IMG/VR virus record: IMGVR_UViG_3300044691_000405
Location: 1 to 21,601 of that record
Length of the DNA: 21,601 nucleotides
Direction: 5' to 3' (one strand)
From: a virus
In this document: positions 5,107-14,467 of the stretch, piece after piece
Position numbering within the stretch: position 1 is the stretch's first letter
How the letters are laid out: every line of letters begins with the position of its first letter
Made by a program: the position numbers and the translations under genes
The notes under the pieces: generated by a model
Database searches by the model: none
Told to the model about the DNA's origin: nothing
Seen by the model: only the letters and a program-made list of their open reading frames with translations

Positions 5107-5808
5107 TCATAGATATTTCCAAAGAAATCCCAAATGATGTTTACTTTTACCTAAAGCTACTTTGTTAATATTTGAACGACTACCATTTAATAAAATACAG
5201 GCCTCAGTCACGGTATTGAATTGTCTTATAAATTTTCCATCAATAGAAAACTGAGCAACTTTTCTTCTGTTATGTGCAATTCGTTCTTTTTTTATTTTTG
5301 GTTTTGCAGTTCCTTTATTCCAAGGAATACAACCCTTTTTTGATGCACTCATTCTTTCAAATTTCAATTTCTTTTTTTCATCAGATTGAGAAGCTAATGT
5401 GTTTTTGAATTTTAATAGAATTGATTTTTTCTTTTCTTCACTCCATAGGCTTTTAGTCTTTATTTGATTATCAATAGCTATTTGTGGCATTTTCCTACCC
5501 TTATTCCAATCTGATATTTTTTTATATGCTTCACTACCAGTATGTCCGCCATAACCGCCATTAGACAAGTTATAACCTATTTGTCTATCGGTAGAATTAA
5601 AATACTTTATCCAAAACCTTTCAGCCTCAGATAAATGGTATCGTGAAATGCAATGTTTAACTATTTGCTTTTTGAAATTCTTAACCCCATGTTTCTTAAT
5701 TGCAAGTTTTAGCAATTTACCTGATCCTAAATATTCAGGATTGTTGTAAAAATCAATGCCTATATAAATTCGGCCATCTAAAATATTTGTAGTCTTATAA
5801 ATTATCAT
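5107..5808 (-). CDS. Free-standing GIY-YIG homing endonuclease with NUMOD3/IENR1 repeats
   Basis: The 233-residue protein starts MIIYKTTNILDGRIYIGIDF, the GIY-YIG signature (IY at 3-4, YIG at 15-17), with a conserved glutamate in LSEAERFWIKYF. The middle has NUMOD3-like stretches (KISDWNKGRKMPQ and KKGCIPWNKGTAKPK). The C-terminus has an IENR1-type DNA-binding repeat beginning KVAQFSIDGKFIRQFNTVTE and ending HHLGFLWKYL. Such enzymes cut phage DNA at or near sites lacking the insertion and spread their own gene. ATG 5808 is chosen because the longer frame needs TTG. It is a selfish insertion between the RuvC-like and small terminase genes. Its Lys/Ile/Asn-rich makeup differs from its neighbours. 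Confidence 0.85.
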   Translation of the reverse strand: MIIYKTTNILDGRIYIGIDFYNNPEYLGSGKLLKLAIKKHGVKNFKKQIVKHCISRYHLSEAERFWIKYFNSTDRQIGYNLSNGGYGGHTGSEAYKKISDWNKGRKMPQIAIDNQIKTKSLWSEEKKKSILLKFKNTLASQSDEKKKLKFERMSASKKGCIPWNKGTAKPKIKKERIAHNRRKVAQFSIDGKFIRQFNTVTEACILLNGSRSNINKVALGKSKHHLGFLWKYL

Positions 5809-5836
5809 AAATAAAATATCCCGAACACATAAAAGG

Positions 5837-5920
5837 CTTATCAAGACTTACCAAAGGAAAGAATTGCATTTATGCGCCGGGAATAATTTAAATGTTTGAT
5901 GTGTTATAAGTCTTAATAAG
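5837..5920. repeat. Imperfect inverted repeat upstream of the homing endonuclease gene
   Basis: The arm at 5837-5850 (CTTATCAAGACTTA) and the arm at 5907-5920 (TAAGTCTTAATAAG) are reverse complements at 13 of 14 positions, with 56 bases between them. They lie between the RuvC-like gene stop and the GIY-YIG start. They could fold in the leader RNA of the endonuclease, mark the edge of the inserted segment, or bind a regulator. Confidence 0.5.
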
Positions 5921-8174: not shown

Positions 8175-9965
8175 TTAAAATGGGGGGTTAATTACTTTAT
8201 CTGGTACTTTGAATGCAACATCAGGCGAAAATATTGCGCCCTGTTCAACATCAGGAATAAGCCAATTTGAATTATCATAATCACCCTCCAAATTATTGAA
8301 CCTACTATTATTAAAATTATATTTTACCTCGCACATACCCTGTTCGCCCAAATGTTCAAACTTGATTTTTTGCACATAGATTTCCGAAAACTTAGTAACG
8401 TAATTTCTATAAAAGCAAACTCCAATATCAACTTTATTAAACCAGTTTGCAGATCCGGCAATATCGTAAAGGTTTGGCACCTCAAATAATCCGGTTTTTA
8501 AATTTTTCCTGATTTTAGTAGGATGCGCCACAATAATAGTGAAAACTGAAAACCTCTGATCAAACCTGATTATCTTATCTAATTCTTTTGATATATACAT
8601 CGTTTCATTATCGCCCTTACTCATATTGTGTTCAAGTTTGTTCCACGGGTCAATAAGCAAACCTCTTATTCCTTTCCTGGTAACCAAAGATTTAGCCTTT
8701 TCAATAATATTATCAGTCGTGTAGTTATCATCTTCCGGTTCTATAAAGAAAAAGTGATCATCAATAAAAGCTTTAGACAATTCCTTTTCACGTGCCGAAA
8801 ATCCAAACCCTGGCCGTGCTCTTTTACCTAAAAGCATCTCACATATTTTAACTAAAAATATAGGCAATGGCTTATGTTCAGGGGAGCATATACCCCACTT
8901 CCAACCATGATTAATTGAAAGGCAGCACATGATCAAAAGTGCAAAAGGAGATTTACCATGATTAGGAATACCCGTCAACCCCATTAATTGCCCAGGCACA
9001 AAAGAAACAAGCTTATCAAAGTCTTTAAGAAATTCAGTAACATCACCCCTTTTCAAACCGGACTGCAGTAAAGTTTCAACGTCATCCCAAATCATTGATG
9101 CCGTTATAATACCGCTTATAGGGAATTCTATTAAGTTTTCATCTTTTATAACGTCACAAAGTTTTTCAGGTCCATAGGCTGTTAAAAATTCATTAGCATC
9201 CTTACAACCATTTAAACTAACCTTATAGCAAATATCATATCCTAACCGCCTGGCTAATTCATCCCGCAACGATTGACCTGGTTCATCATCATCAGTGGCA
9301 AGTATAATCTTTTTCTTATTCTCAAAGTAATGAATACAGTTATCTAAATATTCGAGGTTTAGACTGCCTTTTGAGGCGCCATTTGGAACAGATACAACCT
9401 CTTTTATTCCAGCTTCATTAAATGAAAGTTTATCTATTTCACCCTCGACAATTACACACCAATCAGATTCTTTTATATCATCCAATCCGTAAAAAATAAG
9501 TTCAGCATCCTTTACCATAATGAAATGCTTTTTACCGTCACGGTATTTTATATTTATTAATTCCTGGTTCCTGAAATAATTAAAATTTATTGTGTTTTCC
9601 TCTTTTCCTGTTTGAGGCATAAACTTTTTACATTCAGTTATTTTTTGATCAATTAAAGTTTGCTGGCTTATTGATCGGCCCTGAAACCATTTGACTAAAT
9701 TATTTGAGAGTGAAGTGTTATTGTTAAAAACAGGAATGATATATTCTTTAGGTTTTGGTACATAAGCCTCTTTGATAACAGTTCCTTTAAATCCGCAATC
9801 ATTATGACAATTATAAACCCCGGTATCAAGGTTGATACTTAGGCATGGATCTTTTTTATTTTTCCTGGTATGAGAACATTTAGGGCAAAGCACTTTATCC
9901 GAACCGGCGTTTCTTTTTGTTTCTATGCCAATATTTGCAAATAGTTCCTTTATTGAATTTTCCAT
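8175..9965 (-). CDS. Phage primase-helicase (zinc ribbon + Toprim + RecA-like ATPase)
   Basis: This resembles T7 gp4: an RNA primase joined to a hexameric replicative helicase. A zinc ribbon has C27-x2-C30 and C53-x3-C57. The Toprim primase domain has E174 (VIVEGEIDKLSF) and D225/D227 (ATDDDEPGQ). The helicase domain has Walker A GIPNHGKS at residues 332-339 and a Walker B-like GLLIDPWN with D439, and a later histidine in IIVAHPTK. At 596 residues it is full length. Walker A carries PNHGKS instead of the usual GxxGxGK pattern, which is acceptable for DnaB/gp4-like enzymes. It abuts the replication initiator gene upstream (stop 9966, start 9965). Confidence 0.92.
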   Translation of the reverse strand: MENSIKELFANIGIETKRNAGSDKVLCPKCSHTRKNKKDPCLSINLDTGVYNCHNDCGFKGTVIKEAYVPKPKEYIIPVFNNNTSLSNNLVKWFQGRSISQQTLIDQKITECKKFMPQTGKEENTINFNYFRNQELINIKYRDGKKHFIMVKDAELIFYGLDDIKESDWCVIVEGEIDKLSFNEAGIKEVVSVPNGASKGSLNLEYLDNCIHYFENKKKIILATDDDEPGQSLRDELARRLGYDICYKVSLNGCKDANEFLTAYGPEKLCDVIKDENLIEFPISGIITASMIWDDVETLLQSGLKRGDVTEFLKDFDKLVSFVPGQLMGLTGIPNHGKSPFALLIMCCLSINHGWKWGICSPEHKPLPIFLVKICEMLLGKRARPGFGFSAREKELSKAFIDDHFFFIEPEDDNYTTDNIIEKAKSLVTRKGIRGLLIDPWNKLEHNMSKGDNETMYISKELDKIIRFDQRFSVFTIIVAHPTKIRKNLKTGLFEVPNLYDIAGSANWFNKVDIGVCFYRNYVTKFSEIYVQKIKFEHLGEQGMCEVKYNFNNSRFNNLEGDYDNSNWLIPDVEQGAIFSPDVAFKVPDKVINPPF

Positions 9966-10613
9966 TTAGTAAACCATTTTGCTTTGCATAACCTCTATTT
10001 TATTTTCATCCTTAAACCAAACTGAAATCATTTTTTGTTTCCAGCTTATTATTTTTTTGCCTTTGCTATCAACCCAATTAGTTTGATCGTAATATTTAAA
10101 AGCTTTTACGCCAACTTCATGTTTATATCCATTATCTGCAAAGTACAGGCAAACCTCTTTTTCAGATGGCGCTATAAACATATTCTTTACCTTATTATCC
10201 TTCTTATCTTCTTTAGATGTGTTCACTGGCTGTTCACTGGCTGTTCGCTGGCTGTTCGCTGGCTGTTCACTTTGATTTTCTAAGCTATTATAATCATCAT
10301 ATTTACAGATAGTTACTATAGTAAATTTGTTGTTCGATTTTAGATCAATTGAATTGTCATTTTTTAATTTTTGTAGTACGCGATAGATTTTACTCTCATC
10401 AAGTTTTAATTCTTTTGCTGCTGATGATCTACCAAAAATTAATTGACCTCTTTCAATAGCAATATCAGCATAACCTGAGTTAACTTTTATAGATGCTATA
10501 GAGGTTTTATAATTTGCTTTGAGTAATAACCATATCCAAATCTTTAAATAATCAGGGTTCGAAAATTGGTAGCTATCTAATAATTTACGGTGTAACTTTA
10601 TATATCCTTCCAT
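9966..10613 (-). CDS. Phage replication initiator (winged helix, DnaD-like C-terminus)
   Basis: The 215-residue protein opens MEGYIKLHRKLLDSYQFSNP with the layout of phage replisome-organiser proteins: an N-terminal winged helix ending near TICKYDDYNS, a flexible linker (about residues 113-130, SEQPANSQRTASEQPVNTS), and a C-terminal segment with ADNGYKHEVGVKAFKYYDQT followed by a Lys/Trp end (GKKIISWKQKMISVWFKDEN). Such proteins bind the origin and load the helicase. The linker is encoded by 11-bp tandem repeats, a common site for a phage origin. It lies directly upstream of the primase-helicase gene. Confidence 0.8.
   Translation of the reverse strand: MEGYIKLHRKLLDSYQFSNPDYLKIWIWLLLKANYKTSIASIKVNSGYADIAIERGQLIFGRSSAAKELKLDESKIYRVLQKLKNDNSIDLKSNNKFTIVTICKYDDYNSLENQSEQPANSQRTASEQPVNTSKEDKKDNKVKNMFIAPSEKEVCLYFADNGYKHEVGVKAFKYYDQTNWVDSKGKKIISWKQKMISVWFKDENKIEVMQSKMVY
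10221..10271. repeat. 11-bp tandem repeat, candidate origin iterons
   Basis: Four full copies of GTTCRCTGGCT (10221-10231, 10232-10242, 10243-10253, 10254-10264) and 7 bases of a fifth lie inside the replication initiator gene. Copies 1-2 have A and copies 3-4 have G at position 5. The period of 11 is not a multiple of 3, so the encoded linker changes from copy to copy. The spacing of about one helical turn suits side-by-side binding by the initiator, as at the lambda O gene. Origin function is inferred from position and pattern. Confidence 0.75.
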
Positions 10614-10615
10614 AT

Positions 10616-11092
10616 TTAAAATTCGTAATCAACAGACTTTAAAACAGCATCTACAGTTTCATCAAAATATTCAGTATCAAATAAATCAGTATAAAAAAAT
10701 GGATAATATTTACTCCATTTTGGCATAAGAACAACATCTAACCAAATTCCACCATTAGCCATTAATTTCAAGGTTTTAAATGTAGGAATTCCAACCAATA
10801 ATATTACGGGAATATCTGTTAAATTTTCAGATAATTCAGCACATTTTAATCGTTCTAAAGATGTCAAATCATTTGGTTTTGCCTCAGCATAAGCATTGAA
10901 ATCAGGAAAATAAAAATCAGGTAGATAATTACCGGATGATAATTTAAAATATTGATGCTCATAAATCCAATCCCAATTTAAAGCATCAAAAAAAACAGCC
11001 CATTTTGCTTCTAATCTACTCCTAAAAGTTATGCCTCTATAAATTGTTGGTATTGCCCGGATATCATAATGACGTTTATATTTATTATCCAT
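10616..11092 (-). CDS. PD-(D/E)XK-type nuclease (158 aa)
   Basis: From ATG 11092 the protein reads MDNKYKRHYDIRAIPTIYRG then ITFRSRLEAKWAVFF with E28, an LPDFYFP motif with P58-D59, and AEAKPND with E70 and K72. This is the order of the PD-(D/E)XK nuclease fold, and the 'YRG..FRSRLEA+WA.FFD' opening is common in phage nucleases of this kind. Reading on to 11140 would need TTG and would translate through the terminator hairpin, so ATG 11092 is used. Target unknown. It lies immediately upstream of the replication initiator gene. Confidence 0.75.
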   Translation of the reverse strand: MDNKYKRHYDIRAIPTIYRGITFRSRLEAKWAVFFDALNWDWIYEHQYFKLSSGNYLPDFYFPDFNAYAEAKPNDLTSLERLKCAELSENLTDIPVILLVGIPTFKTLKLMANGGIWLDVVLMPKWSKYYPFFYTDLFDTEYFDETVDAVLKSVDYEF

Positions 11093-11149
11093 AAAAAAGA
11101 AAAGCCCCTGATCGGGTTCAGCTGTGCAGGCATCCCCCAATCAAAGGCT
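11093..11149 (-). terminator. Strong intrinsic terminator/attenuator with T-tract
   Basis: On the minus strand AGCCTTTGATTGGG (11149-11136) pairs with CCCGATCAGGGGCT (11116-11103), a 14-bp stem including three G-T pairs, with a 19-base loop, followed by TTTTCTTTTTT (11102-11092). This is a good rho-independent terminator directly before the ATG of the nuclease gene at 11092, so transcription of that gene should depend on readthrough or antitermination. Confidence 0.75.
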
Positions 11150-11200
11150 ATAATATTGTGATAGTAAACGCACTGCACACACGTTTAGTTTTTTCTGAAA

Positions 11201-11208
11201 CAAATATA
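11201..11208 (-). promoter_or_regulatory. Possible -7 box for a short leader RNA
   Basis: Minus-strand TATATTTG exactly matches TAnnTTTG, placed just after the stop of the 53-residue gene, but no clear TTTG lies about 19 bases upstream. If used, it would make a short RNA of about 95 bases ending at the terminator at 11093. Low confidence. Confidence 0.25.
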
Positions 11209-13847: not shown

Positions 13848-14410
13848 TTTGTTACCTTTTTGTAAATCTGTATCATTAGATTAACGTCATATTCGGCATC
13901 ATGTAGCTTTGTTTCGTCTACCTCAATGCCTAAATACCTGGCAACTGTTGACTGTTTAAAGTCAATCATTAAAGGCCGTTCACGTTTAAGAAATTCCCCT
14001 GCCAATATCATTACATCAATTGGCGAACTCCAAAACCAGGACCCGAAATAATTATCATTACACTGGACAAAAAACGCTCTTAAGAATTGATTATCAAAAG
14101 AAGCGTTATTATACCCGATCAAAAAGAACTTATCCCTTTTATCAAACTTGTCCACGTACTTTGAAAGCATCACGCAAATTTTACCTTTAACCACATCCAT
14201 TGGCATGTAGTTAGCTAATTGCTCACGGGTGATACCTGAGATTGCTAAGGCCTCATCTTCGATCACAGCGTCCTTAAAAGGTTGTACCTTAAAGTCGAAA
14301 TGTTCTTTGATTATACCATCTATTTCAATAGCACCTGATATTTGATGGATTCCGTTTTTCCAATGTTTTACACCGGTTGTCTCTGTGTCGAAAAAAAAGT
14401 TTTTAAGCAT
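13844..14410 (-). CDS. DnaQ-like 3'-5' exonuclease (DEDDh)
   Basis: The 188-residue protein carries the three exonuclease motifs: Exo I FDTETTG with D8 and E10, Exo II GYNNASFDNQF with D106, and Exo III HDAEYDV with H170 and D175. The final His-Asp spacing makes it the DEDDh subgroup like DnaQ, RNase T and Exo X. It has no polymerase or extra domain. It probably degrades single-stranded DNA ends or repairs mismatches in phage replication or recombination, and no polymerase is encoded in the window. A hairpin lies upstream at 14439-14467. Confidence 0.85.
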   Translation of the reverse strand: MLKNFFFDTETTGVKHWKNGIHQISGAIEIDGIIKEHFDFKVQPFKDAVIEDEALAISGITREQLANYMPMDVVKGKICVMLSKYVDKFDKRDKFFLIGYNNASFDNQFLRAFFVQCNDNYFGSWFWSSPIDVMILAGEFLKRERPLMIDFKQSTVARYLGIEVDETKLHDAEYDVNLMIQIYKKVTK

Positions 14411-14438
14411 GGTTTGATTATTTTAAAGTGTCTTTTAC

Positions 14439-14467
14439 TGCCAAAGCCTCAATAAAGAGGCATGGCA
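14439..14467 (-). terminator. Hairpin between exonuclease genes, possible terminator
   Basis: On the minus strand TGCCA, T, GCCTC, a 6-base loop, GAGGC, TT, TGGCA form a stem of 5+5 bp with a small internal loop. It lies between the PD-(D/E)XK exonuclease gene (ends at 14561) and the DnaQ-type gene (starts at 14410). There is no strong T-tract after it, so it may be an RNA stabiliser or a weak terminator. Confidence 0.45.

Follow-up and report, generated by a model that had tools for sequence, protein, structure and literature searches.

Intramolecular kissing loops are known from the purine riboswitches and from other RNAs, in which the two pairing loops belong to separate arms of a three-way junction. 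In phage HK022, a phage of Gammaproteobacteria, the put RNAs are short two-hairpin RNAs that act in cis to bring about antitermination and lie before distant terminators. The packaging RNA of phage phi29 carries complementary loops that vary between phages and pair between molecules for packaging. Bacteroidota form a dominant group in the gut, in soil and in the sea and, to our knowledge, little is known about RNA regulation in their phages. By analogy, the nearest functional precedent for the element described here is the HMP-PP (thiS motif) riboswitch, a terminator-embedded aptamer of thiamin genes with a P1/P2 switch and a pseudoknot (PMC6478431). Like that riboswitch, the phage element would be a compact leader with conserved functional nucleotides inside an intrinsic terminator, just before a gene (PMC6478431); unlike it, the element consists of two separate hairpins with kissing loops and precedes replication or nuclease genes, not thiamin or HET-P genes.

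The element lies on the minus strand of a 21.6-kb virus record (IMG/VR IMGVR_UViG_3300044691_000405), the whole of which is referred to below as the window. Its features and those of the genes that follow it are:

11201 to 11208, minus strand: promoter box TATATTTG, a Bacteroidota sigma-A -7 box (TAnnTTTG), read directly
11094 to 11196, minus strand: putative transcript of ~95-100 nt (H1, linker and H2 terminator), placed from the box position and the U-tract
11165 to 11187, minus strand: hairpin H1, TAAACGTG-TGTGCAG-TGCGTTTA, from folding, with stem pairs that covary in homologues
11173 to 11179, minus strand: H1 loop TGTGCAG, one kissing half, the exact complement of the H2 loop
11150 to 11164, minus strand: unpaired A/U-rich linker of 15 nt between H1 and H2, from the alignment and a listing of linkers
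11103 to 11149, minus strand: hairpin H2, the putative intrinsic-terminator hairpin, from folding and homologue covariation
11117 to 11135, minus strand: H2 apex with internal loop GGAU (11135-11132) / UGAA (11120-11117), from family comparison
11123 to 11129, minus strand: H2 apical loop CTGCACA, the other kissing half, the exact complement of the H1 loop
11093 to 11102, minus strand: terminator U-tract TTTCTTTTTT, read directly
10616 to 11092, minus strand: PD-(D/E)XK-like nuclease of 158 aa, ATG directly 3' of the U-tract, from a PHROGs match
9966 to 10613, minus strand: DnaD-like helicase loader (PHROGs phrog_2514)
8175 to 9965, minus strand: DNA primase/helicase (PHROGs phrog_239)

RNA folding of positions 11215-11085 (minus strand) and direct reading bore out the 14-bp terminator stem ending in a T-tract that the original prediction had described. 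In this fold the outer stem of H2 pairs 11149-11136 with 11116-11103, G-U pairs included, and is topped by a 4x4 internal loop, a 2-bp inner stem and a 7-nt loop; UUUCUUUUUU lies between the H2 stem and the nuclease ATG at 11092-11090. The box that had been placed at 11201 is present at 11208-11201. Direct comparison likewise confirmed that CTGCACA (11129-11123) and TGTGCAG (11179-11173) are exact complements. Their contact had been pictured as a pseudoknot or a loop-linker interaction; the contact stands but the linker does not, since TGTGCAG is the loop of a hairpin of its own (11187-11165), making the interaction loop-loop. The window element taken alone is only weakly unusual, with a fold z-score of -1.5 and, by our own estimate, a ~5% chance of finding a 7-nt complement between its 19-nt loop and the ~70 upstream bases.

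Homologues were sought with patterns drawn from the window and from phage contig L005, and then with covariance models. The exact loop-core pattern from the window alone had no match in viral_contigs, and no close relatives of the window nuclease were found in the same collection. In L005, the first relative, the element stands in front of an HNH gene and shows compensatory changes. The initial broad pattern placed no requirement on the hexaloop but partly fixed the GGGGAT and TGAACC borders; because the hexaloop was free, the loop complementarity reported below is no search artefact. The covariance model recovers 17 members from 17 sources, giving ~17 distinct families, almost all of them of uncultivated phages: the window; L007 (with L008, L009 and L012); L038; L019; L017; L016; L011 (on the contig of L005); L037; L071 (with L076); L042; L015 (with L024); L059 (with L063); L010; L014; L034; L057; and L119. 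Many loci returned by looser patterns were chance matches in coding DNA, and one candidate, G312/L058, is a plain terminator that has no H1 and was missed by the architecture scan described below. BLAST of the elements against isolated phages gave nothing at E 0.01 and only unrelated short matches at E 10; the versions in cultured phages described below came to light solely through model and architecture scans.

Bacterial genome assemblies are the source of two families, L042 (from a record labelled Saprospiraceae) and L057. The pattern search of genome_contigs gave one real match, L042. Phylum and order samples were centred on G012, the genome of L042, and on G305; among the several hundred genomes sampled (the phylum and two orders), only L042 and L057 were real, and the element is therefore essentially a phage feature. 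Most phage contigs have one copy; three related ones lack it, with the caveat that a viral contig may not be complete.

The original prediction had proposed looking for covariation in related phages, and compensatory changes were found. When the kissing pairs are included in the structure, 20 of the 24 pairs show changes on both sides (12.2 in shuffles), and standard pairs occupy 95.8% of 356 cells. The covariation score was 0.713, compared with 0.193 for shuffled alignments and at most 0.192 for slid partners; L034 stands one base out of register in H1 of the alignment, which lowers the covariation counts. Both-sided changes affect all four pairs of the H1 stem and 11/11 modelled pairs of the H2 outer stem, and the loop-loop pairs themselves change from GC to CG, from UA to AU or GC, from AU to CG and from GC to AU. 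In every family the H1 loop is exactly complementary to the H2 loop (17/17, where permutation gave a mean of 3.5 and at most 11), although these families are not fully independent. They fall into seven loop types: GTGCAG, GTGCCG, GAGCAG, GGGCAG, CTGCCA, TGCCGG and, in the window, the 7-nt TGTGCAG. G-U pairs account for 29/287 stem pairs, which fits the element being an RNA of the minus strand in the window. Together, these homologue data strongly support a short structured RNA (~95-100 nt) with a tertiary contact, in line with the original prediction.

The complementarity stops near the loop borders. Flanking bases extend the loop pairing at the first positions in 12/15 and 8/15 sequences and at the second in 1/15 and 3/14, and the closing pair of H1 is kept in 14/15, which argues for a kissing-loop RNA and not one long helix. 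Covarying complementarity is thus confined to the two hairpin loops, the pattern of an intramolecular kissing loop. On one phage contig with two copies each copy matches itself (GAGCAG/CTGCTC and AGGCAG/CTGCCT), as does each of the two elements of Flavobacterium phage hattifnatt9-1, which favours pairing within each RNA type, possible same-type dimers included. The internal loop, conserved and rich in purines, is GGAU/UGAA in 15 of the 17 families and UGAU/UGAU in L057 and L119, whose membership was confirmed by model scores; both versions would be consistent with tandem G.A plus U.U mismatches. The linker is weakly conserved in sequence, with a family tendency towards AAnACAUUUU, and, in families with a fully resolved H2 stem, is 13-20 nt long (15 families listed).

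In 11/15 family members an exact TAnnTTTG box is found no more than 30 nt upstream of H1, against a background of 1.6%; a relaxed box occurs within the same distance in 14/15, against 5.4%. Since this consensus spans -12 to -5 in Flavobacterium (PMC9723704), the +1 of the window transcript was placed at ~11196. From this predicted start to the U-tract, the RNA would measure ~95-100 nt, near the ~95 bases of the original prediction.

In the window, the genes 3' of the element are, in order, those of the PD-(D/E)XK-like nuclease, the DnaD-like helicase loader and the DNA primase/helicase. The best match of the nuclease is phrog_21138 (unknown function, E 9.4e-23), with a weaker match to phrog_9019, a Holliday junction resolvase; upstream of the element are a 53-aa ORF (our translation), a 189-aa protein, an HNH protein and a NinB-like protein. 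Isolated phages with the most similar primase/helicase include vB_RanS_PJN03 and phages of Tenacibaculum, Cellulophaga and Flavobacterium. Across the families, downstream genes belong mostly to replication entry (DnaD-like, primase, helicase) or to homing-type nucleases. The next gene is Lin1244-like in L015, DUF6291 in L016, DUF1376 in L017 and, judged by eye, DnaD-like in L014 and L042; it is of the primase type, directly or after one small ORF, in L007, L038, L019, L037 and L071 (some named by eye). NUMOD4/HNH_3 or HNH genes follow in L010, L059, L005 and L119 (by eye for L059 and L119), a T5orf172/MUG113 gene in L057 and an unknown 78-aa ORF in L034. All readable downstream ORFs are on the strand of the element, and in most families the ATG comes 6-12 nt after the resolved stem (15 families listed).

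L003 holds a homologue of the window nuclease which has no RNA element and is preceded by a short ORF and a TACATTTA box (L003:3616-3870), and L005 has the RNA at its HNH gene and not at its DnaD-like gene; the RNA is thus a movable leader and not part of one gene. In L010 and in L059/L063 the sole copy found follows a capsid-like gene and precedes that of an HNH homing endonuclease, and here endonuclease and leader seem to travel together. The second copy on a 67.6-kb phage contig (L056, G007:C1:5775-5854, minus strand, loops AGGCAG/CTGCCT) precedes a gene whose product resembles phage proteins of the PAPS-reductase family. The window also contains, at 5107-5844 (minus strand), a GIY-YIG homing-endonuclease-like ORF adjoining terminase-region ORFs; a model search found no kissing-loop element before it.

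Versions of the element were also found in cultured phages. Flavobacterium phage hattifnatt9-1 gave a weak model match (18.2 bits, E 0.14) at ~14334-14450, before gp044-gp046 (primase), where a box, H1 and H2 with a U-tract are present and the loops are GUGAGACG/CGUCUCAC. This first element occurs in 46 records and in three covarying loop versions among cultured phages, near relatives having GUGAGAAG/CUUCUCAC in morran9-1 and GUGGAACG/CGUUCCAC in the mumin and snusmum phages. An architecture scan, which uses no sequence models, located a second hattifnatt9-1 element before the helicase gene gp034 (loops GCUUCGAC/GUCGAAGC), an element before the replication genes of Tenacibaculum phage JQ with 10 complementary nt by eye, and one before Nekkels1_88-90 of Cellulophaga phage Nekkels_1 with 6-7 nt and a much longer H2. 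The scan of cultured phages gave 0 matches in 2.2 Mb of shuffled strand-bases and, run over the collected loci, it recovered most family members and L056, again with 0 shuffled matches. The elements of hattifnatt9-1, JQ and Nekkels_1 all precede a module with DnaD-like and primase or helicase genes. What these versions share with the families above is the design; common descent is not implied, as loop length and internal loop differ. Gene gp034 is annotated as starting at 9441, a position that overlaps the terminator of the second hattifnatt9-1 element (L141:9365-9480, MN812207.1); an ATG at ~9476 fits better, and this annotation may be wrong.

Rfam 15 contained no family reaching the gathering cut-off for the window, L139, L141 or L148. 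Permissive Rfam scans gave scattered sub-threshold matches, none of them over the elements of L015, L037, L042, L014 or L034, and no published description of such an RNA was found in a search of open-access papers. The element is therefore placed as a new family of the general kind 'leader RNA with terminator', with an unusual built-in kissing loop. It would share with purine riboswitches two hairpin loops that pair within one RNA; unlike them, H1 and H2 are consecutive, there is no junction, and H2 itself is the predicted terminator. The put RNAs, compared by description, are alike in having two hairpins and in acting in cis on transcription, as we propose for this element, but the phage element contains a terminator and belongs to Bacteroidota phages. 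Unlike the phi29 packaging RNA, it has self-matching loop pairs in two-copy genomes, a mostly replication neighbourhood and no Rfam match. A type III toxin-antitoxin system (ToxI-like) does not describe it either: there is no tandem RNA repeat at the window site and no ToxN-like gene, the downstream proteins being nuclease-like or of replication families.

The reading that we favour, with modest confidence, is a cis-acting attenuator leader in which a kissing fold built into the terminator sets the level of read-through. The conserved promoter box, the two hairpins, the loop-loop pairing, the U-tract, and the position and strand of the element are observed; transcription, termination, attenuation and any trigger are predicted from sequence. 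The TAnnTTTG promoter would start an RNA of ~95-100 nt near H1; H1 would fold first, followed by the A/U-rich linker and then by H2 as an intrinsic terminator, and the two loops would kiss within one molecule. Most transcripts would stop at the U-tract right before the ATG of the next gene, a replication-entry or nuclease gene that would be made from the element's promoter by read-through alone. The level of read-through would then depend on whether the kissing fold forms or is blocked, perhaps by a protein or ligand. H2 has the architecture of a terminator or attenuator, a strong stem and U-tract upstream of a co-directional gene. Because the design recurs in many Bacteroidota phages, mostly at the start of DNA-replication genes, the RNA is probably a switch on those genes. 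Folding across the families revealed no conserved competing antiterminator; because of this, a switch, if any, would work via the tertiary fold or through a factor that binds. Against an attenuator, the downstream genes are diverse (replication, HNH, GIY-YIG-like, PD-(D/E)XK and a likely PAPS-reductase-like gene) and do not converge on one pathway, the RNA can be absent from relatives that share the nuclease or primase, and closeness to the ATG could reflect compaction, as phage intergenic space is tight. The original prediction of an attenuator controlling the nuclease gene therefore survives in part: a cis attenuator fits best, but it is not nuclease-specific, since relatives precede replication genes or other nucleases.

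The strongest competitor, which we nevertheless consider unlikely, is a trans-acting small RNA gene bounded by promoter and terminator, with the kissing fold as a stability element or binding site and the downstream gene as a mere neighbour. Such a gene would account for an element that has its own promoter and terminator and almost no flank, whose terminator precedes the ATG, that usually occurs once per phage contig and whose neighbours vary. It accounts less well for a next gene that is on the same strand wherever readable, with its start codon usually 6-12 nt past the stem, and for two-copy genomes in which each copy precedes a different gene. Moreover, because related phage contigs lack the RNA, it is probably not a required factor.

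Less probable still is a folding switch, in which the loop sequences would first pair in a nested long-range helix at the expense of H1, and H1 and H2 would later take its place. Truncated transcripts do use the long-range helix in their lowest-energy fold in most families, but the flanks do not extend this helix in a conserved manner (second positions 1/15 and 3/14) and H1 closes on itself in 14/15 sequences. A transient long-range-helix stage, preceding synthesis of the 3' arm of H2, is possible in such modelling, and would be compatible with attenuation. A replication-linked RNA, either a primer or an origin element, could be suggested by the fact that most copies head a replication module; we hold it to be very improbable, given the sole copies found in L010 and L059/L063 between capsid-like and HNH endonuclease genes and the second copy on one contig before a PAPS-reductase-like gene. 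An ordinary terminator with a chance complementarity, as the window's weak z-score alone would allow, is refuted by the homologues, in which covariation and loop matching are far above permutation and shuffled DNA yields no architecture match.

Building on the attenuator reading, we tentatively suggest a wider one, which we think rather less probable: a new class of Bacteroidota-phage regulatory RNA, in which a kissing-loop terminator would sense an infection cue (a protein, nucleotide or ion) and time entry into replication, and which homing-type nucleases would have adopted as a leader of their own. If so, a conserved leader of the replication module would be a novel means by which phages time their replication, and a tertiary fold within a terminator would offer a compact natural model for the effect of RNA tertiary structure on termination. 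Because Flavobacterium, Tenacibaculum and Cellulophaga phages with such elements are in culture, the idea is open to direct testing.

Among the loci collected, L039 (JAHBAM020000033.1, a Roseobacter MAG) and L041 (JAHBAN010000033.1, a Flavobacteriia MAG) have the same contig number, the same length of 16,683 and a matching stretch, and a binning mix-up is probable.
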